IMG/VR virus record: IMGVR_UViG_3300045922_000246
Span: 1 to 20,065 of that record
Reading direction: 5' to 3' (one strand)
From: a virus
DNA length: 20,065 nucleotides
Below are positions 1 through 14,094 of the stretch, piece after piece. The notes beneath the pieces are model-generated. The model searched no databases, was not told the DNA's origin, and saw nothing but the letters and a program-made list of their open reading frames with translations. A program made the translations under genes and the position numbers. Numbering within the stretch: the stretch's first letter is position 1; the number at the start of each line of letters is the position of its first letter.

Positions 1-725
1 GTCGGGCCGAACAGCGCGATCACCGGCACGCCGCACGCCGCCGCCAGATGGCTGATGCCCGAGTCGTTCCCGATGTACACGCTCGCCGCCGCCAGCCACC
101 GCGCCAGTCCGCGCAGATCGGCGAACCGCACGGCGCCGTCGAGCTCCTCCTCCGGCCCCGCGCACCAGAACACGGGCATCCGCCGTTCCAGAATCGAAGC
201 CGCCTGACGGAACCGTTCGAGCGGCCAGTTCTTCCGCGGGCTGCCCGAGAAGGGATGAATCACCGCGTACCCGGCCGGTGCGGCGCGGAAGGGCAGCGTG
301 GGCGCTGCGCCCGGCGGCGCCCCAACCTGCCCGAGATAGAAATCCACGGCATGGACGGGACAACCATCGGGCGGCACCGCCCGGTGAAACTCGAACGGCA
401 GCCCCTCCACCTGCCGCCGGAACTCCTCCCGCGCCGCGCCATACCACGAAATGATCCGGCCGAAACGCCGCAGTCTCCCCAGCGTCCCCGCGGGCAGCTC
501 CAGATGGTCCAGCCCCTCGGCGTACAGCGAGCGCGCAGGAGCGATGTGCTCGAACAGCGGGATGTTCTGCTCCGGACACCAGATCTCTGCGGGCCGGAGA
601 TGCCCGACCGCCGGCAGAGAGACGATGGCGTCGCCGATGGCGCCCGGACGGATCACGAGAACCCGCCCTCCGGCGGGCGGAGATTCCTCCCGTGCGTTGC
701 CCGGCGCAGTGAAAGTGTCGCTCAT
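1..725 (-). CDS. Glycosyltransferase family 9 (heptosyltransferase-like), partial
   Basis: This host-side gene runs off the left edge, so only the first 241 residues are visible. Residues 21-37 read RVLVIRPGAIGDAIVSL, the N-terminal nucleotide-fold signature of family 9 (heptosyltransferase) enzymes. A later HPFSGSPRKNWPLERF block and YIGNDSGISHLAAACGVPVI match the donor-binding C-terminal domain. Known family members transfer heptose or related sugars from a nucleotide donor onto lipopolysaccharide core or other glycans at the inner face of the cytoplasmic membrane. Which sugar is used here cannot be told. The ATG at 723-725 is chosen because it is the only in-frame start before the RVLVIRPG motif and no start lies just upstream. 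No good Shine-Dalgarno site precedes it. It lies outside the prophage, beyond the tRNA remnant. Confidence 0.85.
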   Translation of the reverse strand, partial: MSDTFTAPGNAREESPPAGGRVLVIRPGAIGDAIVSLPAVGHLRPAEIWCPEQNIPLFEHIAPARSLYAEGLDHLELPAGTLGRLRRFGRIISWYGAAREEFRRQVEGLPFEFHRAVPPDGCPVHAVDFYLGQVGAPPGAAPTLPFRAAPAGYAVIHPFSGSPRKNWPLERFRQAASILERRMPVFWCAGPEEELDGAVRFADLRGLARWLAAASVYIGNDSGISHLAAACGVPVIALFGP

Positions 726-797
726 GCCCAGCGCTGATTCTCTGGCGTCAGACCGGCAAGCCCGCCGCCCCCGCCCGGATCCCTCCGCATTGCGTCT

Positions 798-831
798 CAG
801 CCTGCAGCCTTCTGCACCCGGTGCAGGCTGC
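798..831. repeat. Inverted repeat between host gene and attachment site
   Basis: CAGCCTGCA (798-806) is perfectly complementary to TGCAGGCTG (822-830). A nested alternative hairpin pairs CTGCAC (812-817) with GTGCAG (821-826). There is no T tract on either side, so this is not a typical intrinsic terminator. It lies in the 726-909 gap between the tRNA fragment and the glycosyltransferase start, which otherwise holds nothing recognisable. It could affect readthrough from the tRNA locus into the glycosyltransferase, but this is a guess. Confidence 0.4.
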
Positions 832-909
832 GTCAGCCGCGGCGCATCTGAGGCCCCCTGGACAGAGAAAGCCCGTCCTCAATCCATCTCTCGGGGGAAT
901 CGGAGGCGC

Positions 910-954
910 TGGAGCGGGAGACGGGACTCGAACCCGCGACGTTCAGCTTGGGAA
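910..954 (-). tRNA. tRNA-Gly(CCC) 3' fragment, attachment core
   Basis: Read on the minus strand this is the 3' part of a tRNA. It holds anticodon loop TTCCCAA (948-954, anticodon CCC), the 3' anticodon strand GCTGA, a 5-base variable loop, T arm GCGGG-TTCGAGT-CCCGT (one G-T pair), acceptor strand CTCCCGC, discriminator T and CCA at 910-912. The 5' anticodon strand is absent: the next bases (ACGCA on the minus strand, 955-959) do not pair with GCTGA, and no D arm or 5' acceptor strand follows. This is what integration into a tRNA gene leaves at one end. The phage copy of the 3' half restores a whole tRNA at the other end. The fragment is thus the attachment core and should not give a functional tRNA. 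Confidence 0.85.
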
Positions 955-971
955 TGCGTTAACGTTTTTTC

Positions 972-984
972 TATCAATGCTTTA
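972..984 (+). promoter_or_regulatory. IHF-like site in attachment arm
   Basis: TATCAATGCTTTA fits the integration host factor consensus WATCAANNNNTTR at every fixed position. It is preceded by a T6 tract (965-970), as IHF favours an A/T tract on that side. It lies about 18 bp from the attachment core and between the core and the integrase gene, comparable with the H' site beside the lambda core. The match is seen directly. Its use for bending DNA in an integrase complex is inferred, and the preferred sequence of this host's IHF is unknown. Confidence 0.5.
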
Positions 985-1007
985 CGGTTCATCAGAATCG
1001 TCGTAAG

Positions 1008-1607
1008 TCACCAGTCGCGCAGTCGGCGGTCACGCTCGATGCGCCTCTTGTTCGTGATCCGCGCGTAAATCATCGTGTTCTGAATGTTGACATGCCCGAG
1101 GTGATCTTGCACATCCTCGATCGGCTCTCCGCGGTTCAGCAGATGGGTCGCGGCCGAGTGTTTCAGAACGTGGACGTGCCTCTTCTCGGGCGGGATTCCG
1201 GCCGCCTCACCGTAACGTTTCATCAGCACATCCAGCATCTGCTGTGAGATCGGCTTCCCGACGCGGGAGGGGAATAGCGGTCCCGGGGCGCTTCCCCTGA
1301 CCCGGAGCCAGGAGCGAATCGCTTTGACTTCGTTCTTGGTGAGATGGTACTGCCCGCCGCGGCTGCCCTTCAAGCGCCGCACGGTGAGCCGATCAGACCG
1401 CGGATCGAAATCGGCCACCTGGAGCAGCCCGATTTCCCGCGCACGGAGACCACGGTGATACGCCACGCGGAAAATGGCAAGATCACGCGGATCGCGGATC
1501 ACTGAGAAGAACCGCTCGATTTCCTGTTCCGTGAGGTATTGGATTTCAGGACGCGCTCGCCTGGTCATCGGAGGGCACGAATTGGTGAGAATAGGCATTC
1601 TCACCAA
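1008..1607 (-). CDS. int: Tyrosine recombinase/integrase, catalytic domain only
   Basis: This is the probable enzyme for integration and excision at the adjacent tRNA-Gly site. The 199-residue frame holds a tyrosine recombinase catalytic domain: first arginine in GLRAREIGLL, lysine in RRLKGSRGG, the histidine motif HVHVLKHSAATHLL, DHLGH, and the tyrosine nucleophile in NTMIYARI. The usual second arginine of HxxR is lysine here (HVLK). The N-terminal SAM-like core-binding domain and any arm-binding domain are missing; phage integrases are usually 300-400 residues. The longest frame begins at TTG (1605-1607), but the hairpin at 1579-1610 covers that start. ATG at 1566-1568 (186 residues) is more plausible and keeps the whole domain. 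Neither start has a clear Shine-Dalgarno site. The stop lies about 50 bp from the attachment core, as expected for an int gene at a prophage end. Confidence 0.88.
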   Translation of the reverse strand: MVRMPILTNSCPPMTRRARPEIQYLTEQEIERFFSVIRDPRDLAIFRVAYHRGLRAREIGLLQVADFDPRSDRLTVRRLKGSRGGQYHLTKNEVKAIRSWLRVRGSAPGPLFPSRVGKPISQQMLDVLMKRYGEAAGIPPEKRHVHVLKHSAATHLLNRGEPIEDVQDHLGHVNIQNTMIYARITNKRRIERDRRLRDW

Positions 1608-1689
1608 TTCATCGGCTTGGCCGGACGAAAACTCAACAGGTTACTGGCGATTTCTGACGTTGGAAACTCGCTGTAGTCACCAATTCGTG
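1576..1689. repeat. TCACCAATTCGTG inverted repeat pair around integrase 5' region
   Basis: CACGAATTGGTGA (1576-1588) is perfectly inverted at TCACCAATTCGTG (1677-1689), with the right arm of the 1579-1610 hairpin (1601-1610) as a third TCACCAATTC copy. A related GTAAGTCACCAGTCG sits at 1003-1017 over the integrase stop codon. The non-coding gap 1611-1697 otherwise shows nothing recognisable. Repeated short motifs on both sides of int and near the core are typical of recombinase arm sites or repressor operators. The sequence alone does not tell which. Confidence 0.6.
1579..1610. repeat. Perfect 14-bp hairpin at integrase 5' end
   Basis: GAATTGGTGAGAAT (1579-1592) and ATTCTCACCAATTC (1597-1610) are perfect inverted copies separated by AGGC. 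On the integrase transcript this hairpin would end about 10 bases before the ATG at 1566-1568 and would bury the upstream TTG and ATG starts. No T run follows, so it is not a standard terminator. It could be an operator, a recombinase binding site or an RNA structure that controls int translation. Confidence 0.7.
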
Positions 1690-1697
1690 TGTCAGGC

Positions 1698-2783
1698 CTA
1701 TTGGAGCACACACCGGCCGGTGAATGAGACCAGAAACTGGATCTGGACGTCGCCGGACGCGCTCACCACGACCTGGTCCGGGATCACCCATTCCCAGTTA
1801 CCTCCGCTTTGCATGAAGCACGTAACCTGAATTGGACCGACCCCAAGCTGGTGGGTCGCAGCGGTCACGCTGACGGAGGTCTGACTCGTCACATCCTCGA
1901 CGTGTTTCAGCCTCGGGAGGCGCTGAGGATCGAGTGTGCCGCTCGTGATGTCGGCGGCGCTGTGGGTATGGGCCGCCGACGGAAAGGATGTAGGTTTGCT
2001 TGTCACGTCTGCCCAATCCACAGCAGCCCACTGCTGATCGCCACGCAGGAACGTACCAGAGGTGGCCGTTCCAGATCCGAGACGGGCAGAAGCGATCGTC
2101 CCGCTGGCGATTTGTGAGGCGTCATGGGTGTGAGACAGCGATGCTTTCCCGTCGAGAGCAGTTTGAAGATCCGTCTGATTGCTGAGCGTCCCGGTGATGG
2201 TTCCCCATGTCGGCGTACCGCCAGTCTCATCCGGCGCCGCGATCCATGCGGATCCGTTCCACTTGATGACCTGGCCTGCGATGGCCCCGGACTGGCTCAG
2301 ATCGGAGAGCGGATGATTGTGCGAGACCGCCGCCTTCCCATTGAGAGACGCCTGTAGGTCCGTCTGATTGCTCAGTGTGCCAGTGATCGCGCCCCAAGTC
2401 GCGGTGGCGCTGATGGTCTGCCAGCTTCCGTCATCCCGCAGGAATTTCGTGCCGTCCGGGGCTCCTGAAAGCCCTGTGATCTTGGACCAGGCGAGGGACG
2501 AAATCCAAGATGGGTTGACGTAGGCGCTGTCGAGGCGGGGATAGCGGCTGTCATGGTCGTGAACCAGCGGCGCCTTCCCGTCGAGGGCGGCTTCCAGATT
2601 GGCGATGTCTCCCACGTCCAGCGTCACATCCTGTGCACGCGTGGGAGAAACGTGCCCAATAGGAAGCGCTGCTCGATTTTTACAGTCACATCCTGTGCAC
2701 GCGTGGGAGAAACTCTGTGGATATTGGTAAAAACGCGCGAAAAACTGTCGGTTCACCTGGTGCAACAAACGGGCATTCCACAC
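1698..2783 (-). CDS. Tail fibre protein with repeated collar modules; 5' end doubtful
   Basis: The frame has 361 residues, of which about 52-361 look like a phage tail fibre. Two copies of TWG(A/T)ITGTLSNQTDLQ are followed by LDGKA or LNGKA and SHNH or SHTH motifs, then LGSGTATSGTFLRGD, a HTHSAADITSGTL repeat and a beta-rich C-terminus. Such repeats form the shaft of receptor-binding fibres. Residues 1-51 are unlike a fibre and are read through the 29-base repeat pair and its spacer, with cysteine-rich low-quality sequence. The longest frame starts at GTG 2781-2783 with no ribosome site. GTG 2625-2627 is an alternative, also without good spacing. The usual N-terminal tail-attachment domain is missing. 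The gene may therefore be a 5'-truncated fibre or a fibre cassette without its base. Confidence 0.7.
   Translation of the reverse strand: MWNARLLHQVNRQFFARFYQYPQSFSHACTGCDCKNRAALPIGHVSPTRAQDVTLDVGDIANLEAALDGKAPLVHDHDSRYPRLDSAYVNPSWISSLAWSKITGLSGAPDGTKFLRDDGSWQTISATATWGAITGTLSNQTDLQASLNGKAAVSHNHPLSDLSQSGAIAGQVIKWNGSAWIAAPDETGGTPTWGTITGTLSNQTDLQTALDGKASLSHTHDASQIASGTIASARLGSGTATSGTFLRGDQQWAAVDWADVTSKPTSFPSAAHTHSAADITSGTLDPQRLPRLKHVEDVTSQTSVSVTAATHQLGVGPIQVTCFMQSGGNWEWVIPDQVVVSASGDVQIQFLVSFTGRCVLQ
2623..2713 (-). CRISPR. CRISPR-like mini-array: two 29-base repeats, one 33-base spacer
   Basis: Two identical 29-base copies lie at 2623-2651 and 2685-2713, separated by a unique 33-base segment (2652-2684), so the period is 62. 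Read on the minus strand, each starts GTTTCTCCCACGCG and ends CACAGGATGTGAC. The GT start, CCCACGCG middle and GGATG near the 3' end recall type I-E repeats of 28-29 bases, whose period is about 61. Against this, the internal stem is weak, there are only two copies, no cas gene is present, and copy one runs directly into fibre coding sequence. The bases on the 5' side (2714-2750) contain A/T tracts, as a leader might. A chance duplication of phage DNA gives the same picture. Confidence 0.35.
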
Positions 2784-2818
2784 TACGACACTAGAGATTC
2801 AGTTGTTGCACCAGGTGA
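2753..2818. repeat. 16-bp inverted repeat with dyadic arms upstream of fibre gene
   Basis: TCACCTGGTGCAACAA (2753-2768) is perfectly inverted at TTGTTGCACCAGGTGA (2803-2818) across a 34-base loop. Each arm also contains its own dyad CACC-N-GGTG, so this may be two copies of one operator in opposite orientation, about 54 bp apart centre to centre. It lies between the 88-residue gene (stop at 2837) and the CRISPR-like repeats, in a stretch less GC-rich than the neighbouring genes. No clear -35/-10 pair is seen, and no T tract makes it a terminator. Confidence 0.65.
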
Positions 2819-2836
2819 TCCAAAGAGTGAAGCCGG

Positions 2837-3103
2837 TTAGGCGCCAGAAGGCCGGAACAGCCCCAGGGTATTGAAAGTCGTAACGACGCGGCTGACCACT
2901 CGGGCCACAGTGGGCTTCAAGTCGTCCGCCGCGCCAACGACATCGTCGATGACACCCAGGATCAGCTCCAGCTTCTCTTTGCCTGCCTTCGGCAAGGGGA
3001 TAGCATCTTCCGCTGCCCGGATCGCCTGGATCAGAGCAGGAAGCATCGTCAACACCTGAATCAACTTCTGCACAAACACCTCCACAAGATCAAAGCCCTC
3101 CAC
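2837..3103 (-). CDS. Small helical phage protein, function unknown
   Basis: This gives 88 residues from GTG 3101-3103, or about 82 from GTG 3083-3085, which has GGAGGG ten bases upstream. The product is predicted to be mostly helical, with a hydrophobic stretch VLTMLPALIQAI near residues 18-29 and a C-terminal amphipathic part ending FNTLGLFRPSGA. I do not recognise a family. It overlaps the end of the membrane-anchored gene upstream and is the last gene of the lysozyme cluster, so an accessory lysis role is possible by position only. The single hydrophobic segment is too weak to call it a holin. Confidence 0.6.
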   Translation of the reverse strand: MEGFDLVEVFVQKLIQVLTMLPALIQAIRAAEDAIPLPKAGKEKLELILGVIDDVVGAADDLKPTVARVVSRVVTTFNTLGLFRPSGA

Positions 3104-3857
3104 GGACAGCCGCGCCGGCCAGCGTCAAGCCGCCCTCAACAAACAACCGTCGCTTGCTCGTGTACCACTTCCCCATGCGGTCCAGGCTGGCGGCGATGCC
3201 GTCCACGCTCTTCGCCGTGGTCGGACCATAACGTCGGAGCGTTTCGCTGGTCGTCTCAGCAGCCAATGTCACGGACGATAGCGTCAGGTTTGCCTTGCGT
3301 GCCATCCACCAGAACTCGTATTGGAGGCATGGCCGCCCCTCGCCCATCACGCCAGTTCCGCAGTCAAACCACGGATACACGGCACCGTGCCATGATGCCA
3401 ACGTTCCGTCGGCCCGCCGGATCAGGCCATCGGCGGCCGCCATTGTGGTCGTCGATTGGCTCACCAGTTGAGCCACCGAGGCCGTTGTCTCCCCGAGCCG
3501 TCTATCGGTCACAGCAATCACCTGGCCGAGCCGCGCATCGAGCCGCGCCTCGACGCTCGCGAGACGCTCATCAGCCGTGCGTTCGAGCGACTCGATCCGG
3601 GCCGCCGCCGTTCGCTCGAGAGATACCGCGCGAGCATCCGCGCGTGCAATGATCTCACCGGCCCGCCGATCCACGAGTACCGGCAGCCAGGCTGCAGCGG
3701 CCTCGGTCGTACGGGCCGCGGAAGCCACGGCGCGCGCTGCAAGTGCCGCCTCAACGGCTAGCCATGAGAGAGCCGCAAGCGCAGCAATGGCCGACCAGTT
3801 GCGCAGGTGCACAATGAGGCTTTGGCGTGGCCCCATCTGGACTGTGTCATCCATCAT
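3090..3857 (-). CDS. Membrane-anchored coiled-coil phage protein
   Basis: The 255-residue product has one likely transmembrane helix at residues about 22-45 (WSAIAALAALSWLAVEAALA). A long alanine- and arginine-rich coiled coil follows at about 50-130, with repeats of the form AAARIESLERTADERLASVEARLD. A globular part then contains two cysteines (FDCGTG, RPCLQYEFWWMA). The start overlaps the lysozyme-like gene: GGACATGATGGATGA contains its stop and both candidate ATGs, with GGAGGA just upstream. A membrane anchor plus coiled coil next to a peptidoglycan hydrolase suggests a lysis or spanin-like part, but it is longer than known spanins and I do not recognise the family. Confidence 0.7.
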   Translation of the reverse strand: MMDDTVQMGPRQSLIVHLRNWSAIAALAALSWLAVEAALAARAVASAARTTEAAAAWLPVLVDRRAGEIIARADARAVSLERTAAARIESLERTADERLASVEARLDARLGQVIAVTDRRLGETTASVAQLVSQSTTTMAAADGLIRRADGTLASWHGAVYPWFDCGTGVMGEGRPCLQYEFWWMARKANLTLSSVTLAAETTSETLRRYGPTTAKSVDGIAASLDRMGKWYTSKRRLFVEGGLTLAGAAVRGGL

Positions 3858-4356
3858 GTCCTCCCCAGTTCATTGGAAATGGTTGGTCCACCGGGATCCC
3901 GAGCCGCCCGGCCACGAAGCGGGCATACGCCGCCGGATCATTGCCGTCGCTTGCTGGTGCGTATATCTGGAACATCTGGAGCGGAGTCGGGCGCTTCCCC
4001 TCGGTATGCCGCCCGCTCAGATAAATCTCGATCTGGCGTTTCAGCTTGCGCCACCCCTCCTCAAGCGCGCGCTGCCTCAGTTCCGCTTCCGGCAGGTCGC
4101 CAAACTTCTGACGCGCCCACGCCACGAAGTCCACATACCCGCGAGGTCGCCCGTCCGCCCCGAGCCCGCCGGTAGTCGGATACCAGCGCCCCTGGGCGTC
4201 CTGCCACACCCGGATGTTTCCGGGGTTGCAGCACTTCTGCGCGATGGTCGGCCACTTGATTCCGCGCCGCCGGGCCTGCTCCTCGGTGACATAGAAGCCT
4301 TCCTTTGCGGCCATAGCTTCGGCCATCGCGTTAATAAGCATCCTGTCGCTCATCAA
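3847..4356 (-). CDS. Lysozyme-like peptidoglycan hydrolase (NPGNIR type), putative endolysin
   Basis: The 169-residue protein has the layout of a phage lysozyme-like or transglycosylase-like domain. It has an N-terminal helix with glutamate in AAKEGFYV (about residues 16-23; E19 is the best candidate catalytic acid), CCNPGNIRVW (about 42-51), GYVDF, EEGWRKLKRQIEIYL, then TPLQMFQIYAPASDGNDPA and YARFVAGRLGIP. Related proteins cut glycan strands of the cell wall during lysis or DNA entry. The assignment rests on this motif order from memory. There is no signal peptide or transmembrane segment, so export would need a holin, or the protein is virion-borne. It shares ATGA with the gene upstream. 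Confidence 0.65.
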   Translation of the reverse strand: MMSDRMLINAMAEAMAAKEGFYVTEEQARRRGIKWPTIAQKCCNPGNIRVWQDAQGRWYPTTGGLGADGRPRGYVDFVAWARQKFGDLPEAELRQRALEEGWRKLKRQIEIYLSGRHTEGKRPTPLQMFQIYAPASDGNDPAAYARFVAGRLGIPVDQPFPMNWGGHDG

Positions 4357-4682
4357 GCCTCCTCAACAAGCTGCACGACCGCTCGCACTGCTGCCATTTC
4401 CTCGGCAGCCTTGGCCTGGGCCAGCTGCGCCTCCAGTTCGGCTGCCAGCTGGCCGGCCTCGCCGGCCAGCTGGCGCACGGTCAGCCCTTGGCGTTCCAGC
4501 ACCGGCCGCAGCCAGTTAGACCAGGTCATGCGGATGAAGAGGTCCGTCTTTCCCAGCACCGGCTGGCCTTCGGCCTGCAGGTAGGTCACATGTTGATCCA
4601 GCACCGCCGCGATTTCCTCGGGGATCTCGATCACGGAAGGCTGCTGGCTTTCCTCGTGGAACGTGATGGTGATCTTTGCCAT
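4353..4682 (-). CDS. Phage protein of unknown function, 109 residues
   Basis: The start ATG 4680-4682 has GAGGAGGAAGACGGA before it, a strong ribosome site. The N-terminal half (KITITFHEESQQPSVIEIPEEI) looks like a small beta-rich fold. The C-terminal half (about residues 65-105) is an alanine, glutamine and glutamate-rich helix or coiled coil. I do not recognise a family. It lies between a fibre protein and the lysozyme-like gene, whose ATG overlaps its stop, so the two are probably translationally coupled. A perfect DNA palindrome lies inside its coding sequence. Confidence 0.65.
   Translation of the reverse strand: MAKITITFHEESQQPSVIEIPEEIAAVLDQHVTYLQAEGQPVLGKTDLFIRMTWSNWLRPVLERQGLTVRQLAGEAGQLAAELEAQLAQAKAAEEMAAVRAVVQLVEEA
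4444..4474. repeat. Perfect 14-bp palindrome inside the 109-residue gene
   Basis: GCCAGCTGGCCGGC (4444-4457) and GCCGGCCAGCTGGC (4461-4474) are exact inverted copies with a 3-base CTC loop. The coding sequence here gives the palindromic peptide QLAGEAGQLA. The hairpin would be very stable on either strand. No T tract follows. Confidence 0.7.
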
Positions 4683-4707
4683 TCCGTCTTCCTCCTCGAA
4701 CTCATAC

Positions 4708-5571
4708 TCACGGCGCTGAAGTGCTGTGCTGCCACGTCGTTCCCGTACCGGTCAGGTCCAGCCACTTGTAGCGGACGGTGCCGGCGTCGTTGAACTGGAT
4801 AACCAGCTTGCTTCCCTTTATGTAAAGCTTCGCCTCGTTACTGGCCCCGGGAGACGCTGGCGTCTCCGACGCTTGGAACATCGTAAACGCACCCACTCCT
4901 TCGAAGCGGAACTTTGTCGATATGCCAGTCTGATTCGGGCCGTTGAGATCGATGTGAACATCGGTTTGCCCGTTCGAGCTGGACCAAGTTGATCCGGCAA
5001 TGAAGCGGAGCTGGCCGCCAAGTAAAACACCCGACCCGGCATGGCCATATGCCGCCAACTGAAGAAGCCTGTCCTGCGCCTGCGTGGCCGCTGGATTTGC
5101 TTTGGTCCCCCGCGCGCTGTAGCCACGCAGGATGCCGCCGCTGCATATGCTCGATCCCGACCATGCTTTTAGGACCATTTCGGCCGAGTTGAAAAGTTGG
5201 TCGGCGCTGGCTTCCACCAGCATTCTCGTCCAGATAGACGCGGCAAGGTGGAGGAGTTCCTCTGGCGAGTCATTCCCCAATCCGACTTTCCCGCCGCTAT
5301 AGTAGATTGCGCCGGCTGTCCCGCTCACCCACTGGGACGGCTGGACAAATACCCATGCACCGTCGCCGCGTAGGAATGTCGTACTGTCGGGCGTGCCGCT
5401 GCCGAGCCTCGCCGGAGAGAAGACCCCGCTGACGATGACGCTGCTATCGTGGTCATGGTTCTGAGGAGCCTTGGTAGCAAGCTCATCGTTCAGCGCCGTG
5501 AAATTCCCGTTGATCGTGAAGAGGCTCTCATCGACTGGATCGTCGAGCGTCAACATGGTCAGGTTCGCCAT
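4708..5571 (-). CDS. Tail fibre or receptor-binding protein
   Basis: The 287-residue product starts at ATG 5569-5571, with GGGAGGATGAC as its ribosome site. The N-terminus MANLTMLTLDDPVDESLFTI resembles short phage fibre leaders. It is followed by ATKAPQNHDHDSS (a histidine repeat of fibre shafts), then VFSPARLGSGTPDSTTFLRGDG, the same module as in the fibre gene at 1698. The rest is beta-rich (YYSGGKVGLGNDSPEELLHL, then a long C-terminal domain ending KWLDLTGTGTTWQHSTSAP). The GKVGLGNDSPEELLHL part recalls trimeric fibre head repeats. It is likely a distal tail part that contacts the host surface. The receptor cannot be told. Confidence 0.75.
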   Translation of the reverse strand: MANLTMLTLDDPVDESLFTINGNFTALNDELATKAPQNHDHDSSVIVSGVFSPARLGSGTPDSTTFLRGDGAWVFVQPSQWVSGTAGAIYYSGGKVGLGNDSPEELLHLAASIWTRMLVEASADQLFNSAEMVLKAWSGSSICSGGILRGYSARGTKANPAATQAQDRLLQLAAYGHAGSGVLLGGQLRFIAGSTWSSSNGQTDVHIDLNGPNQTGISTKFRFEGVGAFTMFQASETPASPGASNEAKLYIKGSKLVIQFNDAGTVRYKWLDLTGTGTTWQHSTSAP

Positions 5572-6092
5572 GTCATCCTCCCTCGAGAAAGTGCCGCCGG
5601 AGGCAGATTCGAGAGCCGATACACACCTCCCGCTCCGCACTCGACCAATAATGCAAGCTGAATGGGGCTGCCGCCTCCAGCCGACAGATTTCCAAGTGCG
5701 GAAGATCCAAGCAAGAATGTTGGCGCCGCACCGCTGCCGAAGGCCAAGTTCGCGTCTGCAGGGCCGGCAGGGGTGCCGAGTGCGAGGACTCCGGATCGGA
5801 GCAGCGCTCTCCAGGGTGTTGGGTAGTCGCGCCAGCGGCCTGTCATCTCACGCCCGCGATAGATCCCCGCAGCCGGAATTATCCGTCCGCCAGATGGCTC
5901 AACGATGGTCAGGCCGACAGAAATCGTCTCGGCATCACCCGCTGACGCAATTTCTGCCGCTCCGGTGCCAATTGTCAGAGCTGCGATGGCGAATGGAACC
6001 GTCAAGGCGCGCCACGATTGTGCGTAACCTCTCCACAGGCCCGTCAAAGAGCGCCATGCGGGATATGCAATCGAGCCAGCCAGCAACACCAT
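5559..6092 (-). CDS. Phage tail-region protein of unknown function, 177 residues
   Basis: The ATG is at 6090-6092 in TGATG overlap with the stop of the gene upstream, and the 3' end overlaps the next fibre gene by 13 bases. Such coupling supports the frame. The N-terminus MVLLAGSIAYPAWRSLTGLW is hydrophobic. WRALTVPF and WRALLRSG recur, and small residues dominate the C-terminal half. I do not recognise a family. The position between a tail-associated protein and a fibre suggests a virion component. Confidence 0.6.
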   Translation of the reverse strand: MVLLAGSIAYPAWRSLTGLWRGYAQSWRALTVPFAIAALTIGTGAAEIASAGDAETISVGLTIVEPSGGRIIPAAGIYRGREMTGRWRDYPTPWRALLRSGVLALGTPAGPADANLAFGSGAAPTFLLGSSALGNLSAGGGSPIQLALLVECGAGGVYRLSNLPPAALSRGRMTWRT

Positions 6093-6442
6093 CAGGGCAC
6101 CTGTACAAGCAGCGTGTTGGGCCGAAAGAAGAACCCGTCCCCAGCAGATAGCGTTCGCGCCTGCGTCAACGGGGCGCCAAAGAGAAACGTGCTGCCGCGC
6201 CACCACCCGCAATGAGTGATGGTTGTGGGAGGCAGATCAGTCCACACAACTGACGCCGAGTTGCTGCTTTGACCGTTTGACGCGGCAGGAAAACTGGCGG
6301 CTGCCCGGCTGTAACTGCCGCCGCTCACCTCATTCGATCCAGCCGTGACTGGATCGGCCGTGTGGAGGGAAATGTAGATCTGCGAGCCCTGCAGCAGGGC
6401 GTCAATCATCATGTTCTTGGCGGTCGTGCTGACAGCCATCAT
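6092..6442 (-). CDS. Tail-associated protein of the LHTADP / GGSYSR type
   Basis: The 116-residue protein has the motif order often seen in short phage tail proteins: IYISLHTADP (residues about 22-31), SNEVSGGSYSRAAASFPAAS, VVWTDLPPTTITHCGWW and SAGDGFFFRPNTL. Two ATGs are in frame, at 6440-6442 and 6437-6439. GGGAGGAA fits the second better, and that start makes a TGATG overlap with the upstream stop. The precise role of the family is not known to me. Position and length fit a tail tip or fibre-connected component. Confidence 0.7.
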   Translation of the reverse strand: MMAVSTTAKNMMIDALLQGSQIYISLHTADPVTAGSNEVSGGSYSRAAASFPAASNGQSSNSASVVWTDLPPTTITHCGWWRGSTFLFGAPLTQARTLSAGDGFFFRPNTLLVQVP

Positions 6443-6690
6443 TTCCTCCCGGCGTCGATCTGAACGTTCGCGGTGGCCTCTCCCTCGTTCATCTGCGGCT
6501 GCACCATCACAAGGCCGCTGAGATCGTCAGCCAACCTCCATGCGCCCTCCAGTTCGTGCGCTGCGCACAGTGTGCTGATGGCGGACTGGATGGCTACCTC
6601 GGCGCGCGCCATCTCTTCCCTGGCCTGGGAGTGGCGGAGCACCAGCGCCCTGATGAATTGTCGTTCGTGGTCCGAAAACGAGTGAACCAT
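6439..6690 (-). CDS. Small phage protein of unknown function, 83 residues
   Basis: ATG at 6688-6690 follows an ideal AGGAGGACAC ribosome site, only 8 bases after the hub gene's stop. The product (MVHSFSDHERQFIRALVLRH...) is predicted to be helical throughout, with an N-terminal basic and histidine-rich helix. It contains no membrane segment or known motif. It overlaps the next gene by 4 bases. It may be a virion or chaperone protein of the tail tip, but no family is recognised. Confidence 0.65.
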   Translation of the reverse strand: MVHSFSDHERQFIRALVLRHSQAREEMARAEVAIQSAISTLCAAHELEGAWRLADDLSGLVMVQPQMNEGEATANVQIDAGRK

Positions 6691-6698
6691 GTGTCCTC

Positions 6699-9600
6699 CT
6701 AAATGAGCGGGATCTTCCCGATGAAGTTGCCATTGGCGTCGTGCGCCGGAATCCAGCGGTTGCTCGTGACCCCTCCGAGCGGAATGGACTCCCAGACCGT
6801 GTTCGCGAACCGCATGTGATCCAGAACGACGACCTTTTCGATGTAGGCGTCCACGACATCCAGAAGCGAGTTCGGGCCCAGATCGACGGTCGTATGCGGC
6901 GAACTGCACTGAAATTCGCAGCCGTATGCCGTCGCTTCGATCTTTATGGTCTTGTTCGTGTCGGCTTTCAGGATCAGCCGTGCGCCATGCGGATCGCCGA
7001 GCGGCTCGGTGACCGTCAGCTCCGCCCGGGCGTTAGACTGGATCCTGTTCAGTATGAGCTTCTGCCACCCAAGGCTTCCAAACCCGCCAGATATTCCGGA
7101 AACCGCGACCTCGTAAGAACTCACCTGAGTTGCGAAATTGCCCTGGATGGCTCCTACGTACAGGCCTTCCGTCGGATTAATCTTGATCCGGCTGTTATAC
7201 GGCACCGAGTCCACCTGGATGGACGCGTTGTTGATCTGCGCCCCTGCGCTGGTCAAGGAAATAATGGGGCTCGTGAACGTCCCGCCAAAACGGCCGTTTA
7301 CGGCCCACAATCCGGTGAACGATTGGCTTCCCTGCGTGAACTCCCCGATCGCTCCGATGATCCCCCCGAAGCTGTCTGTGATGATCAAGCGCGGGGGCTG
7401 CCCAGCGTATGGGCCGATGCTGATCTGATTCCCCGCCAAGTGGGACGTGTTGATCGCGCCGGCGGCGATCAGACCGGCTACGATCGTGCCGGCCGCGATT
7501 TCGTTTGCCGTGAGCTTGTCCACGGCCAGCTCTGCCTTGATGTCGGAGCTAGGCATCGGACGGACGTAGGCCGACCCGTTCCAGCGATACAGCCTGCGGT
7601 CGCTCGTATTGACAATGAAATCGCCCTGGTAATTGGACGGCACGTAATTGAGGACGCGCACTGGCGCGAAACTCGTGGCAAACTCCGCCGCCGTCAGGCC
7701 GTTCTGCTGAAGCTGGCTCTTGATTTGAGCCGCATTCGCATCCGGCTGGTAGGCTGAGCCGTTCCATGTCCAGAGCTGGCCGGACCAATACACGACTCTC
7801 GATCCGAGCCACGAGGCTCCCGGTTGTGTGGCGGCAATCACTGGCACATCGCGGTCCGGAGCTGTGGTGATCCGGCCTTGACCGTCTACAGCCATCGGTC
7901 CAGTGACGGAGCCGGGTTTGGCGCGCGTCATTGTCACACCGCCGGAGACAGGCACAGATACGAAGACCGTCGGCGGGTTGACCGGATTCTCCTGCCCGAG
8001 TGAATTGCAGGCGACTGCTTTGAACAACCAGTATTCGGGCTGGCTTGGCAGCGGCCACCAGCCGCCCGGCCCGCCGGTCATGATCGCCGCGACCCTGTCA
8101 GGCAGCCAGTCAGCAATCGGCTGACCGGCCGAGTTGGCGGGCCGCCGGTAAACGTGGATGTGGTGGAAGTCCGGGTCAGACGGCGGCGAGAACGAGAACA
8201 CAAAGCGGGCGCGCGGCACCTCCTGCGACTGGTCTGTTTCTACGGTGACCTGCCAGTTGTAAACCTGGTCGCTCAAACCAGCCCGCGGAAGCCAGACGCT
8301 CGCCACCGGCAGTTGTCCGGTGTTGTAATCCGACGGCTTGAGCCAGACGCCATCCGCTGGTAGCTGAGCCACGAGCGCAAGGTGAATGTACTCCCCCTCG
8401 CCTGTCGGAGGCGGCACCCAGAGCGTCACCGAGCCCTCGGTCGTGTTCGCCTCAGTCGGCTTGTAAAGCGAGTACGGTGGCGGCTCAGACTCCGGCGAGC
8501 GATACTCGTAGATGCCGTACACCACGCCCGGAATCGTCAGCGGCGTCCAACTCAGATCCAGTTTGCCGTAGCGGATACCGTTTCCGTCATCCCAGTAGCC
8601 GCTGAGTTGCGCCGTGAAGTTCCAGTTGTGCCCGACGCCGGGCACGGCATCTCCCAAAGGCAGATGCAATGCGTAGGGCCCGGCGATCGTGCCCCAGGCG
8701 CGGTTTCCGCCGGCTCGGTCGCGCACCGCTGCCCGAAGCCAGAATTGCGTCGATGAGCCTGGCGTTATAGGCCACCATGGACTGTGAATCGTGGTTGGAT
8801 CGCCAGGGCGATGCTCTCCGATCCTGCGCAGCGTGGCCCAATCGCTCGGTACGGTTTCTGACGCAAAACGCACATGCACGTCAGCCCCGCCGTAGTGCTC
8901 CTGACCCAACGCCGAGCCTGAGAGATTCACAGCCAGCCGATAGCTCCAGCCGCCTTCGTTCTGCCGATACTCGACAGCGGCAGACGTGATGGAAAGCGGG
9001 TCCAAGGGGCCTGTTGGGACGCCGCCGGATCCGCCTTCCGATGGCCTCGGCGACGATGGCGGGATGCCTTGCGCAGCTGCGAGGTCACGGAAGAAGCTGG
9101 CCGCGTCATCAGTGGCCGGCCCCGTCACGCATTCCAACTGGACAGATAGCTGACCGGCCACGTCAGCAGTGCGAATCTGACGGATCAGATACGTCAGCGG
9201 GTACGCATATCCGCCGCCATTGTATGAGCCGGAGGCATTCGATCCGACAAGGCGAACCTTGTCCGAATCGACCACCTGCACGCTCCAGGATCCATTCAGG
9301 CCAGGTACCTGGTGGAGCCGGATGCGCGCGCCGTCCATGAGGCCGTGGCCAGGAATGGTGATGACCGACGGCGCTCCATATTCGACCGCGGCGACCTGCT
9401 TCCACTCAAGACGGTAGCCATCGACGTCGACGTGAATGAACTGCCCCACCCGGGCTGTCGAGGCGAGCGGCTCGATGACAGTATTGGTGTCGATCACAGC
9501 CACCGCGCTGAGGCTGTCAAGCTTGTCAAGCGCCGCCTGTGCATACTGCCTGGCGTCCGCACGGGTCATCTCCTGGGATGTGTCGATCAGCTTTTCGTAG

Positions 9601-10598
9601 ATGCCAGTATGTTGTTCGATCGAGGCGCGGCGGCTGATTTCGCCCGTGTTTTCCACAGTGAGCACTTCGGACGACAAGCCGATGTATGTGATCTCCAGCA
9701 CGTCTCCGGGGGCGAGAGCTGCAGAGTTGTCTGATTGGCCGATTTCTCTGCTCCCGGTCTGCCAGTAGAACTCCGCGGCATCGTCGCCGTATGGTCCCAC
9801 TGTGCGCGACACTCCGTTCACGCGGACCGTGGGCGAGGCATGTACTGGGAAAGTCACTGCCCAGCGCTTCCTCGTTCCGTCCGGCTTCATCCAGTCGAGC
9901 GGGTCTTCTCCTTCGCCAGTTCGGCCTTGCGCATCGAATCGAGCCATCTGCGGATCGCGGACGAACTGGCCGATCTTGGCGATGATCCTGTTGGCGTACT
10001 GCTCGCGTGTCGAGCGCAGCACGAGATCTTCAAAGTTGGTGCTGTCTGGATCCAGTTCGAACGGGCATGCATAGGAATTGGGCGCGAAGAAGCGTAACTG
10101 GCGTCCGTAGTCGATGTACCAGACCATGCCTGCAACTTCGGCGAGTTGCTGGAGGGCCTCGGCGATAGTGGCATGGTCGATCTCGAAGCGCTCGACGACC
10201 GGGCCCTGCTGGATGAAGTCAATCCCGACAGCCTCTCCGCCCAGGTAGGTCGTGCAGATCTCGATGACGATCGCGCCTGCCCGTGTCGCCTGCCAGCTTT
10301 TCTGCCCGGTGATCCTCCGGTCCAGGATGCGATGGTGGTCGACGCAGGACACCCTCCACAGGCCGGCGAAAGTCCCCGGATATCGCACGGCTTCCACCGT
10401 CTCGATGCTGCCGGCGAAAATCGTGTAGGCGCCATCCTTCACGAGCACGCTCTGCCCAACCTGCGGCGCCGTGATTGAGCCGTCCGGGTTGTCGATCGAG
10501 AACTCGCACGTCGACCGGCCTCCGAGGGTTTCGACGATGTTCAAGGTGCCCTGCTTCCAGTTGTAGGGTCCGCCGCCGATCAGAAGTGAGAACGCCAT
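6699..10598 (-). CDS. Tail hub / central fibre protein, J-like multidomain
   Basis: The 1299-residue protein is the largest in the window and lies after the tape measure, where tail tip or host specificity proteins sit. Residues 1-400 look like a tail hub domain (LLIGGGPYNWKQGTLNIVET; later hub-like GDVLEITYIGLSSEVLTVEN). Residues about 530-890 hold several beta-sandwich, fibronectin III-like stretches. Residues about 890-1060 carry WNGSAYQPDA and RRLYRWNGSAYV repeats and the EIAAGTIVAGLIAAGAI motif common in J-type central fibres. The C-terminus is beta-rich. ATG 10596-10598 has no Shine-Dalgarno sequence: the terminator hairpin ends just upstream. The fusion of hub and central fibre in one chain is inferred. 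Confidence 0.8.
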   Translation of the reverse strand: MAFSLLIGGGPYNWKQGTLNIVETLGGRSTCEFSIDNPDGSITAPQVGQSVLVKDGAYTIFAGSIETVEAVRYPGTFAGLWRVSCVDHHRILDRRITGQKSWQATRAGAIVIEICTTYLGGEAVGIDFIQQGPVVERFEIDHATIAEALQQLAEVAGMVWYIDYGRQLRFFAPNSYACPFELDPDSTNFEDLVLRSTREQYANRIIAKIGQFVRDPQMARFDAQGRTGEGEDPLDWMKPDGTRKRWAVTFPVHASPTVRVNGVSRTVGPYGDDAAEFYWQTGSREIGQSDNSAALAPGDVLEITYIGLSSEVLTVENTGEISRRASIEQHTGIYEKLIDTSQEMTRADARQYAQAALDKLDSLSAVAVIDTNTVIEPLASTARVGQFIHVDVDGYRLEWKQVAAVEYGAPSVITIPGHGLMDGARIRLHQVPGLNGSWSVQVVDSDKVRLVGSNASGSYNGGGYAYPLTYLIRQIRTADVAGQLSVQLECVTGPATDDAASFFRDLAAAQGIPPSSPRPSEGGSGGVPTGPLDPLSITSAAVEYRQNEGGWSYRLAVNLSGSALGQEHYGGADVHVRFASETVPSDWATLRRIGEHRPGDPTTIHSPWWPITPGSSTQFWLRAAVRDRAGGNRAWGTIAGPYALHLPLGDAVPGVGHNWNFTAQLSGYWDDGNGIRYGKLDLSWTPLTIPGVVYGIYEYRSPESEPPPYSLYKPTEANTTEGSVTLWVPPPTGEGEYIHLALVAQLPADGVWLKPSDYNTGQLPVASVWLPRAGLSDQVYNWQVTVETDQSQEVPRARFVFSFSPPSDPDFHHIHVYRRPANSAGQPIADWLPDRVAAIMTGGPGGWWPLPSQPEYWLFKAVACNSLGQENPVNPPTVFVSVPVSGGVTMTRAKPGSVTGPMAVDGQGRITTAPDRDVPVIAATQPGASWLGSRVVYWSGQLWTWNGSAYQPDANAAQIKSQLQQNGLTAAEFATSFAPVRVLNYVPSNYQGDFIVNTSDRRLYRWNGSAYVRPMPSSDIKAELAVDKLTANEIAAGTIVAGLIAAGAINTSHLAGNQISIGPYAGQPPRLIITDSFGGIIGAIGEFTQGSQSFTGLWAVNGRFGGTFTSPIISLTSAGAQINNASIQVDSVPYNSRIKINPTEGLYVGAIQGNFATQVSSYEVAVSGISGGFGSLGWQKLILNRIQSNARAELTVTEPLGDPHGARLILKADTNKTIKIEATAYGCEFQCSSPHTTVDLGPNSLLDVVDAYIEKVVVLDHMRFANTVWESIPLGGVTSNRWIPAHDANGNFIGKIPLI

Positions 10599-11184: not shown

Positions 11185-14094
11185 TTACAAGCCTCGCTGC
11201 TTGAGACGGCGCACCAGCTCGTCCAGGAACGCATCCAGATCCCGGAATCCGATGAAATTGGCGCCGTCCATGTTGATCGTGATGTTGCCCCCGCCGCCCG
11301 CCAGCTTCAGGCCTCCGGTGATGTACTCGTCCCACCCAATCAGAACGTCCCGCACCTCCACGATGCGGGCCTGAACGTCTCCGAATCCTGGCAGGCCCGC
11401 GTTGATGCGGTGAATGATGTGCTCCAGATGCAGCGAGCTCTTGCGCGTGTTCCATTCGATCGCGTTGAGCGAGCCCTCCTGCCTCGCATTCTGGAAGACC
11501 GAAATCACTCCAGTGACGGCGCTGATGGCCCCCGTGACCACGCCGGCCAGCGCGGTAAACGAGGAGCCGATCACTTTCCCGACTGTACCCGCGGTCTGAC
11601 TGGCCACCTGCCCGGCGGCTGCCGCCGTGGACGCTGCCGCGGACGCTGCCGTGCCCGCTGTGGCCGCGGCGCTGCCGCCCAGACCGAAAATCGATCCGAT
11701 CTTGGCGAGACCGGGAATCTTCGCTACGATACCCGCGATTTCGCGGCCCATCGCCGCAAAGGTCTTCTCGATGGCGAGCCGTGTCAAAGCTTTCCCGATC
11801 TGCTCCAGGCTGTCCACCATCACGTCCTTGAACTTCCCGCCTTTGAAGATCAAGTCCGTGATGTCCTTTGCCGTGTCCTGAAAGATCGCGCCAAGCCGCT
11901 GCTTGGCCTGCTCCCAAAAACTGACTTGCTCACGGCTGAGATCACGCTGCCACTTCTGGAGCCTTTGCAACTGCGCAGCCTCTTCTTGCGTGAGGGCAAT
12001 GTTCTGACGGCGCTTCTCGAGCAACAATTCCAGCTCGGCCTTTCGCTGCTGATAGACCGGCGCGTTGCTAGACTTCAGTGTGGCCACGTCGGCGGCCATC
12101 TGATGGATGTCCTTCTCGCCATCAAACCCGAGCCGCTTCTTCGCCTCCTGCAGCTTCTTGTACTGCTCGACGTTGATCCCCAGAGCCCAGGCCAACTGCT
12201 TGAGTTGCTGTTCAGCGCGCGCGGCAGCCTGCTGGTTGCCGATCTCCTCCCACATCCTCTGGTAGAACCGCCCGGCTATTTGCGCGGCGATGCCTGATTG
12301 CTCCGCAGCCTGTCCGGCTTTGGCCACGTACCAGGGGAACCTGTCCGGCTCGAACCCGCGCAGCGAGAGAATCTCGGCAATCGACCTGAGCCTCTGCTCG
12401 GCCTCCTTGGCTTGGGCGCCGCCGGCGATTTCGGAGACCATGTCGCGCAGCACTGTGCCCACATTTTCTGGCCCCTGGATTTTGCCAAGCTCCTCACGGA
12501 CCGCTTTGATTGGCTTGTGCACGGCTTCGAAGGCCTGCCGCACGGCCTCCTGCGCGCGGGCCAGATCCATGGCGGAGGCCTTGCCTTCGCGGTATGCCTG
12601 CTCAACCGCAGCCAGCGCCTCACGAGCCTGCTGGTAGCGCTTCGTGAGCGTCTCGGTGCTGTCGACTCCCAGCACGCGGAAGGCCTCGGCGAGGTCCATG
12701 GTCTGCCGCCTGGTCTCGTCTGCCGCCTGATGCGTCGCCTTGTGGGCCGTCGCCAGTTGTATCAGGCCGCGGGCGTACTGGGCGATCGAGATTTCAGCGC
12801 GTCGGTAAGCCTGGTCGAGTTCCGCTGTCGAGATGCCAGCCTGATGGAGTTTGATCCGGAGAATCTCAATGCTGTGGTTCTGCTGCTCGGTGGCCTCGCG
12901 CGCCTGTTGCTGCGCGTCGCGCAGTTGTCTGGATGCCGAGACCAACTGGACGACTCCGGCGGCCGCCTGCACAGCCGCGAGGGCCGTAGCTGTCAGAAGA
13001 GCCGCGCCTCCGAGTGCCTTCAGCGCCACGGTGGCCGATCCTGCCGCCGGAACGACCTGCGAAATCAGTGCTCCTGCAAACTGGCCAAGAGCCAAAGTGC
13101 CAGCGCCGACAGCCACGGTCATCGCTTTTATGACCGGAATTGCTGTGGCGATGCCCGTGATCCCCAGCCCGATCTGGCCAATCGCAGCCAGCGCCGGACC
13201 GGCGGCCACTGCGAGCCCCCCAAGAGCCACAGCCGTGGCCTGGATGGCCGGCGGCAGCTCGCGGAATCCCTTCGCCATGTCCGCCAGCTTGGAAACAGCG
13301 GCCTCAGCGAATTTCGTCACCAGTTCCGTGCCCGGCCGCAGCGCGGCGCCGAATTCCGCCATCGCGCGCTCGGCCGCGTCGCGGATGTTCTCGAACGCGT
13401 TCTTGACGCCGCCGGTCACCGGCGGCAGTTTCTCGAACTCCGCCACGATCCGCTCGATGAACTCCTGCGTCGAGATGCCCATCTTCTGGAGCGCTTCCGT
13501 ATCGGCCGTGCCGAACGCGGCCTTCATCGCAGCGCGGATCTGCGGCAGGCGTTCGCCGAGCTGGTTGATCTCCTGCGCGGAGATCTTCCCTTTGGACTGG
13601 ATCTGGGTGAGGGCGAGAATGACGCCGTCCAGATCGGCTTTGCCTCTGCCGACGGTGGCCAGAGCGTTGCCAAAAGCCTTCAGAGAACGCTCTGCCAATT
13701 GAGCCGAGAAACCGGCGGCCTGGAGATTCACCGAGCCCTGGATGGCCTCGCGGAAGCCGAGTCCCGGCAGCTTCGCCACCTCGGCCAGCCGCGCGAGCTG
13801 CTTGTCCGCCGCGGCGGCGCTGCCGCTGACGGCGATCAGTCCCATGCGCAGGGCTTCCAGATCGGCGTCGGCCTTCACCGCGGCCACGCCCAGCGCAGCC
13901 AGCGGCGCGCTGACTCCGATCGTCAGCCTGGTCCCGAGGGAGCCGATTCGCTCGAACGCCGTACGAATGCCGCGCACAGCATTGTCGCTTACCGAGCTGA
14001 GCCGCTGCATCTCGACCGACACTTCGCGCACGCCGCGCGAAAACTGCGCCGTGTCGGAGGTGATCTTGACGATCAGTTCACTGAGCCGTGCCAT
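11185..14094 (-). CDS. Tape measure protein
   Basis: The 969-residue protein sets tail length and fills the tube lumen in long-tailed phages. The N-terminus (SELIVKITSDTAQFSRGVREV) and the block at about residues 113-200 (LGFREAIQGSVNLQAAGFSA, QSKGKISAQEINQLGERLPQ) match the tape measure N-terminal domain family. A long hydrophobic alanine/glycine region at about 275-390 is typical of the membrane-inserting part. Coiled-coil, glutamine-rich segments follow at 390-730, and the end is GGGNITINMDGANFIGFRDL. Its ATG lies inside the 3' end of the chaperone frame. By the usual rule of about 0.15 nm per residue, the tail would be roughly 145 nm long. Confidence 0.92.
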   Translation of the reverse strand: MARLSELIVKITSDTAQFSRGVREVSVEMQRLSSVSDNAVRGIRTAFERIGSLGTRLTIGVSAPLAALGVAAVKADADLEALRMGLIAVSGSAAAADKQLARLAEVAKLPGLGFREAIQGSVNLQAAGFSAQLAERSLKAFGNALATVGRGKADLDGVILALTQIQSKGKISAQEINQLGERLPQIRAAMKAAFGTADTEALQKMGISTQEFIERIVAEFEKLPPVTGGVKNAFENIRDAAERAMAEFGAALRPGTELVTKFAEAAVSKLADMAKGFRELPPAIQATAVALGGLAVAAGPALAAIGQIGLGITGIATAIPVIKAMTVAVGAGTLALGQFAGALISQVVPAAGSATVALKALGGAALLTATALAAVQAAAGVVQLVSASRQLRDAQQQAREATEQQNHSIEILRIKLHQAGISTAELDQAYRRAEISIAQYARGLIQLATAHKATHQAADETRRQTMDLAEAFRVLGVDSTETLTKRYQQAREALAAVEQAYREGKASAMDLARAQEAVRQAFEAVHKPIKAVREELGKIQGPENVGTVLRDMVSEIAGGAQAKEAEQRLRSIAEILSLRGFEPDRFPWYVAKAGQAAEQSGIAAQIAGRFYQRMWEEIGNQQAAARAEQQLKQLAWALGINVEQYKKLQEAKKRLGFDGEKDIHQMAADVATLKSSNAPVYQQRKAELELLLEKRRQNIALTQEEAAQLQRLQKWQRDLSREQVSFWEQAKQRLGAIFQDTAKDITDLIFKGGKFKDVMVDSLEQIGKALTRLAIEKTFAAMGREIAGIVAKIPGLAKIGSIFGLGGSAAATAGTAASAAASTAAAAGQVASQTAGTVGKVIGSSFTALAGVVTGAISAVTGVISVFQNARQEGSLNAIEWNTRKSSLHLEHIIHRINAGLPGFGDVQARIVEVRDVLIGWDEYITGGLKLAGGGGNITINMDGANFIGFRDLDAFLDELVRRLKQRGL

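Follow-up and report, generated by a model that had tools for sequence, protein, structure and literature searches.

How does a prophage come to carry two exact copies of a 29-nt sequence on either side of a unique 33-nt segment, a layout that resembles a CRISPR array with a single spacer? Here, we trace each part of this unit to its source, and we conclude that the unit very probably arose as a natural off-target ("neo-CRISPR") spacer integration by host Cas1-Cas2 into the prophage. The geometry of the unit and the nature of its insertion site point to the Cas1-Cas2 event itself; the whole case is one metagenomic contig.

Based on a repeat search of the window (i.e., the whole 20,065-nucleotide stretch analyzed), the 29-mers form an exact pair with a spacing of 62 nt and have the minus-strand sequence GTTTCTCCCACGCGTGCACAGGATGTGAC, while the segment that they enclose has the minus-strand sequence TGTAAAAATCGAGCAGCGCTTCCTATTGGGCAC (Table 1). 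No third copy of the 29-mer is present in the 20,065-bp record at up to 3 mismatches. On the minus strand, which carries all phage genes around the unit, the Mu-like module is followed by GTTTCTCCCACGCGTGCACAGGATGTGAC, TGTAAAAATCGAGCAGCGCTTCCTATTGGGCAC, a second GTTTCTCCCACGCGTGCACAGGATGTGAC, the tail gene, the integrase, the tRNA-like segment, and the host gene. A coding or protein repeat is ruled out because 62 is not divisible by 3. In 1.77 Mb of comparison loci, gapped exact repeats (at least 22 nt, with a gap of at least 15 nt) are found at about a dozen places, and a gapped duplication by itself is, therefore, not decisive; the decisive features are the 29/33 geometry, the insertion site, and the source of the 33-mer. 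A scan of 1.10 Mb of the genome of a related acidobacterium, G149, revealed no further unit with two copies in this layout. The initial annotation had described the same two exact copies, with the same coordinates, period, and minus-strand sequence, and had named a simple duplication as the main alternative to a CRISPR array. This alternative is wrong: the 33-mer has no second copy, which rules out a tandem duplication, and it derives from another phage, as described below.

Table 1. Features of the 29/33/29 unit and its surroundings (coordinates are those of the window)
Feature	Position	Strand	Remarks
Host glycosyltransferase 9 gene flanking the prophage	3..725	-	PF01075, 4.5e-14; 95% identity in G149
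tRNA 3'-end-like segment, probable attachment repeat	910..954	-	tRNA reading by eye
Tyrosine integrase of the carrier prophage	1008..1607	-	PF00589, 4.7e-32
PTR-repeat tail gene, 3' part, truncated 5' by the Mu-like end	1698..2631	-	Intact 609-aa homologue in L123:6899-8728
Copy 2 of the duplicated site, running on into the tail-gene remnant	2623..2651	-	
Inserted 33-nt candidate spacer TGTAAAAATCGAGCAGCGCTTCCTATTGGGCAC	2652..2684	-	First T, putatively the PAM-derived nucleotide, then 32 nt
Copy 1 of the duplicated site	2685..2713	-	Leader-like side; Mu-like right end (2694-2713) plus 9 nt GGATGTGAC (2685-2693)
Right terminal region of Mu-like transposable phage	2694..2821	-	GTGGGAGAAACTC, TTGGTAAAAAC, inverted repeat 2750-2768/2803-2821; would have the leader role in the unit
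Mu-like (L138-type) module: lysozyme-like gene, tail fibre, small genes	2694..7217	-	

Carrier prophage and parents of the 29-mer

The 4.86-Mb acidobacterial contig G149, which shares its order with an uncultured Acidobacteriia MAG, contains a related prophage (L123) at the same place as the prophage in the window, and window positions 1-2631 share 88% identity with this G149 locus. This identity together with that of the glycosyltransferase gene argues that the host of the window is near G149, yet not G149. Near the G149 prophage, two further sites carry perfect 45-bp copies of the tRNA-like segment. Upstream of the integrase gene, at 1579-1610 and 1680-1690, we noticed a perfect 14-bp inverted repeat (GAATTGGTGAGAAT/ATTCTCACCAATTC) with a partial extra copy nearby; this repeat is conserved in L022, and its arms are possible integrase arm sites. 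L022 has the integrase in common with the window and lacks the tail gene and, thus, does not represent an empty site. P0004 yielded no relatives.

The 29-mer is native phage DNA, i.e., the junction of a 20-nt Mu-like right end and 9 nt of a tail gene, and the parents of the two parts are found, in a single copy each, in two prophages of G149, L138 and L123. Above position 2693, the window sequence tracks L138 up to ...CCAATATCCACAGAGTTTTTCCCGCGCGTGCACAG, which is L138's own terminus. The two share 75.5% identity over 2.5 kb (2693-5225), with more matches at 5477-5591 and 5989-6570, and the right terminal region in the window is 80% identical to the right end of the G149 Mu-like prophage. On the other side, homology to L123 spans the tail gene to window position 2631 and then ends, while the L123 gene (ORF 6899-8728) runs on for ~300 codons; the 9-nt part, GGATGTGAC, is homologous to GGAAGTCAC in L123. 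At the Mu-like junction, the tail gene had already lost its 5' end. No allele with the joined junction and without the insert was found; only the separate halves were, in L138 and L123.

L138 is a Mu-like transposable phage. The element (G149 positions ~3,966,363-4,001,263) has terminal inverted repeats, is flanked on both sides by the 6-bp sequence GCACGC, and encodes a transposase (phrog_310, 5e-47) and Mu Gam (PF07352, 9e-27). The pattern GGGARAAACTC-N8-TTGGTAAAAAC is common to both of its ends and was found nowhere else in 257 genomes. The 19-bp inverted repeat adjoining the Mu-like right end in the window is conserved in L138, and its arms are probable transposase binding sites. At ~7217, a crossover between L138-type (Mu-like) and L123-type sequence lies inside a large tail gene (6699-10598) that is common to both; this crossover could have deleted the remainder of an inserted Mu-like prophage. 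We also considered another Mu-like insertion that was then deleted internally, leaving a 53-bp TG...CA element flanked by 9-bp repeats; we reject this because, in the other element of the family, the duplication is 6 bp long and the left end differs.

In searches for an imported CRISPR repeat, the 29-mer was unmatched in viral and genome contigs using exact or degenerate patterns, and a comparison with 12 relatives gave no match at up to 3 mismatches. Rather than the phage-carried CRISPR repeat that it had been taken for, the 29-mer is a junction of a Mu-like end and a tail gene that was duplicated upon insertion.

Source of the 33-mer and the type I-E locus of a related host

Among the 2.9 million viral contigs in IMG/VR, the 20-nt core of the 33-mer has a single match, L151, which is a 12.4-kb tailed-phage contig. 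The 33-mer and L151 are identical at 29/33 positions, 23 of which are contiguous; the donor is a relative of L151 and not L151 exactly. The match falls within a large gene that is weakly similar to a central tail fibre protein (phrog_31), and the in-frame translations read NVKIEQRFLLG for the insert and NAKIEQRFLLG for L151, with the nucleotide differences falling within the reading frame. Six genomes from the same bacterial group (G148, G206, G207, G208, G211, and G213) contain sequences of the L151 type, with 70-79% identity over kilobases. Around the start of the protospacer, three of these homologous sites read AA|TG, and others, as does L151, read AA|CG. This AAT or AAC lies on the side of the 33-mer that faces the leader-proximal copy, i.e., at the position of a type I-E PAM, and AAT, AAC, and AAG are among the listed I-E PAMs (PMC8482600). 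From the sequence of these homologues, AAT would be the PAM in the true donor. Searches of phage and plasmid records gave chance-level matches alone, for the spacer and for the site, and the spacer was not found in 257 genomes of the order at up to 3 mismatches.

G149 contains a type I-E array (1580371-1583571) with 53 repeats of GTTCTCCCCACGCGCGTGGGGATGGTCCG, a period of 61 bp, and spacers that are all 32 nt. Upstream of the array are cas3 (Cas3e), cas8e, cas11e, cas7e, cas5e, cas1, and a cas2-sized gene; G149 being a close relative and not the window's own host, the presence of Cas1-Cas2 is known from G149. A separate cas6e was not identified at this cas locus and may hide in the N-terminal part of a 604-aa open frame (L117:16671-18485), in which the match to Cas7e is limited to residues 203-586. 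Several spacers in the array are duplicated, adjacent or apart, as if by array rearrangement.

Two of the G149 spacers, sp22 and sp37, each match L151 at 28/32 positions, compared with at most 24 matches for shuffled spacers in 1.75 Mb. Together with the L151 relatives in the group genomes, these matches support that the donor is a phage of these hosts that their CRISPR has met. The same array contains spacers against relatives of the window prophage: sp25 matches L009 at 32/32 and L010-L012 at 31/32 positions, while sp26 matches L014 at 31/32 and window positions 13168-13199 at 27/32. Thus, the window's prophage group is a target of CRISPR adaptation and, here, a recipient too.

The repeat that precedes sp25 ends with T and not G, and T also precedes the sp25 protospacers in L009, L011, and L012, arguing that the last base of the repeat is spacer-derived. 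Accordingly, each new spacer adds 33 bp and duplicates 28 bp in the G149 array; in the prophage unit, 33 bp are added and 29 bp are duplicated. This is near the type I-E geometry, as originally suggested for the unit, and the one-base difference in the duplication speaks against off-target integration. Relative to the host repeat, the prophage site has GGATG shifted one base to the right, and each of the two duplications ends 4 nt past this motif. This endpoint would fit control of the second cut by a ruler, a model for type I systems summarized in PMC6895254.

Likeness of the insertion site to the leader-repeat junction

Off-target sites of Cas1-Cas2 in vitro look like leader-repeat junctions (PMC6895254), and integration outside arrays occurs in Escherichia coli with overexpressed Cas1-Cas2 (PMC11788318). 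The first 14 nt of the duplicated site match the G149 repeat in register at 11/14 positions, CCCACGCG included. This score is attained at three of 40,104 positions in the window, two of which are the copies themselves, and at 201 of 2.13 million positions in G149. When four leader nucleotides are included, the match is 14/18, which is unique in the window and found at 13 of 2.13 million positions in G149, a rarity that is qualified by the fact that the interval from −4 to +14 was picked after the sequence was seen. When the offset is shifted by one base or more, the match is at most 7. The L138 end also matches the G149 repeat at 11/14 positions; the likeness of the site is, therefore, older than the insertion. 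The match to the whole repeat is unremarkable (15/28, a score that 119 of 40,076 window positions also attain; 15/29 for the full 29-mer), and the case consequently depends on the leader-side half.

In folding predictions, the G149 repeat reaches −12.8 kcal/mol compared with −3.8 kcal/mol for the prophage copy, and shuffled sequences do as well as the latter, consistent with the weak stem reported in the initial annotation. Because the I-E hairpin is lacking, processing by Cas6e is unlikely, and the unit is probably inert. By eye, a hairpin with G-U pairs on the plus strand resembles that of type I-E; it was rejected since it is no better than shuffles and, compared with the host repeat, lies on the wrong strand.

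Origin of the unit and its relation to known systems

We suggest that the unit arose as follows. Judging from the two prophages, a Mu-like phage would have inserted into, or recombined with, the tail gene of an integrase-type prophage, resulting in a single junction that reads ...CAGA followed by GTTTCTCCCACGCGTGCACA and GGATGTGACGCTGG. Upon infection by an L151-related phage, the host I-E Cas1-Cas2 may have taken a 33-bp fragment of that phage's own tail gene beside an AAT PAM and used the prophage junction in place of, or besides, the true array. The upstream CAG and the first 14 nt, being similar to the host leader-repeat junction, would have attracted the integrase to this junction. The cuts would have been made at the G of GTT and 29 bp onward, 4 nt past GGATG as in the host repeat, and gap repair would have generated the exact 29-bp duplication around the 33-bp insert. 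The allele before insertion, without the 62 bp, would read ...CAGAGTTTCTCCCACGCGTGCACAGGATGTGACGCTGG..., while the product, without an I-E hairpin for Cas6 processing, is probably silent. Thus, of the CRISPR mini-array originally proposed, the CRISPR origin holds, given the spacer from a rival phage, with its match in the L151 tail gene and a candidate PAM at the correct end, the I-E geometry and orientation, and the half-site match to the relative's repeat; the proposed function, use of the host's Cas proteins against rivals, is unlikely for a 29-mer without the hairpin.

It is very unlikely that the unit is a working phage mini-array, in which a prophage crRNA would act together with host I-E Cas proteins to exclude L151-like rivals. 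Virus-borne mini-arrays are known (PMC6858448), and the spacer is directed against another phage of the same hosts and has a plausible PAM; however, the repeat is phage-native and lacks the hairpin, the repeats of published phage mini-arrays mostly equal or closely resemble real CRISPR repeats (PMC8616872), and the spacer differs from L151 at 4/33 positions. We consider it similarly improbable that illegitimate repair of a break at the junction of the Mu-like end and the tail gene duplicated 29 bp by template switching and captured 33 bp of filler from a coinfecting phage. Mu-like ends are break-prone, and gapped duplications do occur in the comparison loci; however, such repair predicts neither an insert of 33 bp nor a PAM on the correct side, nor does it predict the in-register likeness to the host leader-repeat junction or that the source phage is also targeted by the host's CRISPR. 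That the pair is a functional repeat of the Mu-like end without a CRISPR link, e.g., extra transposase binding sites, is hardly credible: 20 of the 29 nt are conserved terminal sequence of the Mu-like element, but the related L138 has one terminal copy per end, the duplication takes in 9 nt of a foreign tail gene, and the 33-mer is phage-derived.

We favor off-target integration by Cas1-Cas2 over these explanations. It is a further, if improbable, idea that the ends of Mu-like phages in this host group resemble the host leader-repeat junction closely enough to draw spacers, either as a decoy from the array or as a seed for mini-arrays against rivals.

The unit shares features with several known systems. 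Like the right end of a Mu-like phage, the sequence next to it has a terminal inverted repeat, a CA-3' terminus, and adjoining tail-fibre genes; however, in the window, this end is a relic joined to the tail gene of an integrase-type prophage. As in a type I-E array, the insert length, the orientation, the candidate PAM-derived first base, and the duplication of approximately one repeat are found, whereas the single unit has no leader, CRISPR repeat, or hairpin. The mini-arrays of viruses (SPV1/SPV2 of Saccharolobus and phages) also have one spacer, two repeats, no cas genes, and a spacer that targets another virus of the same host, but their repeats are host-like and some have leaders (PMC6858448), whereas the repeat described here is phage-native with similarity to the host repeat in a half-site only and no hairpin. 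The authors of that study suggested that leaderless phage mini-arrays may gain spacers via recombination with host arrays; our analysis suggests direct mis-integration by host Cas1-Cas2 as a second route to CRISPR-like units in phages. Finally, the off-target Cas1-Cas2 integration termed neo-CRISPR (Nivala, Shipman and Church 2018, Nat Microbiol 3:310), as outlined in PMC11788318 and PMC11687729, similarly involves a spacer-sized insert that lies outside an array, at a site similar to the native leader-repeat junction, together with a target duplication the size of a repeat. Unlike the cases as outlined there, the unit in the window resides in an acidobacterial prophage, the donor phage is recognizable, and both parents of the target junction are known. 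Nivala, Shipman and Church reportedly named candidates in the chromosomes of Yersinia pestis and Sulfolobus in 2018. For this unit, the donor phage, the target junction, the PAM, and the cas locus of a related host are identifiable together. With site, enzyme, and donor at hand, the question of origin becomes testable, and the unit would, if our interpretation is true, be an instance from nature of a mobile element that underwent off-target CRISPR adaptation.
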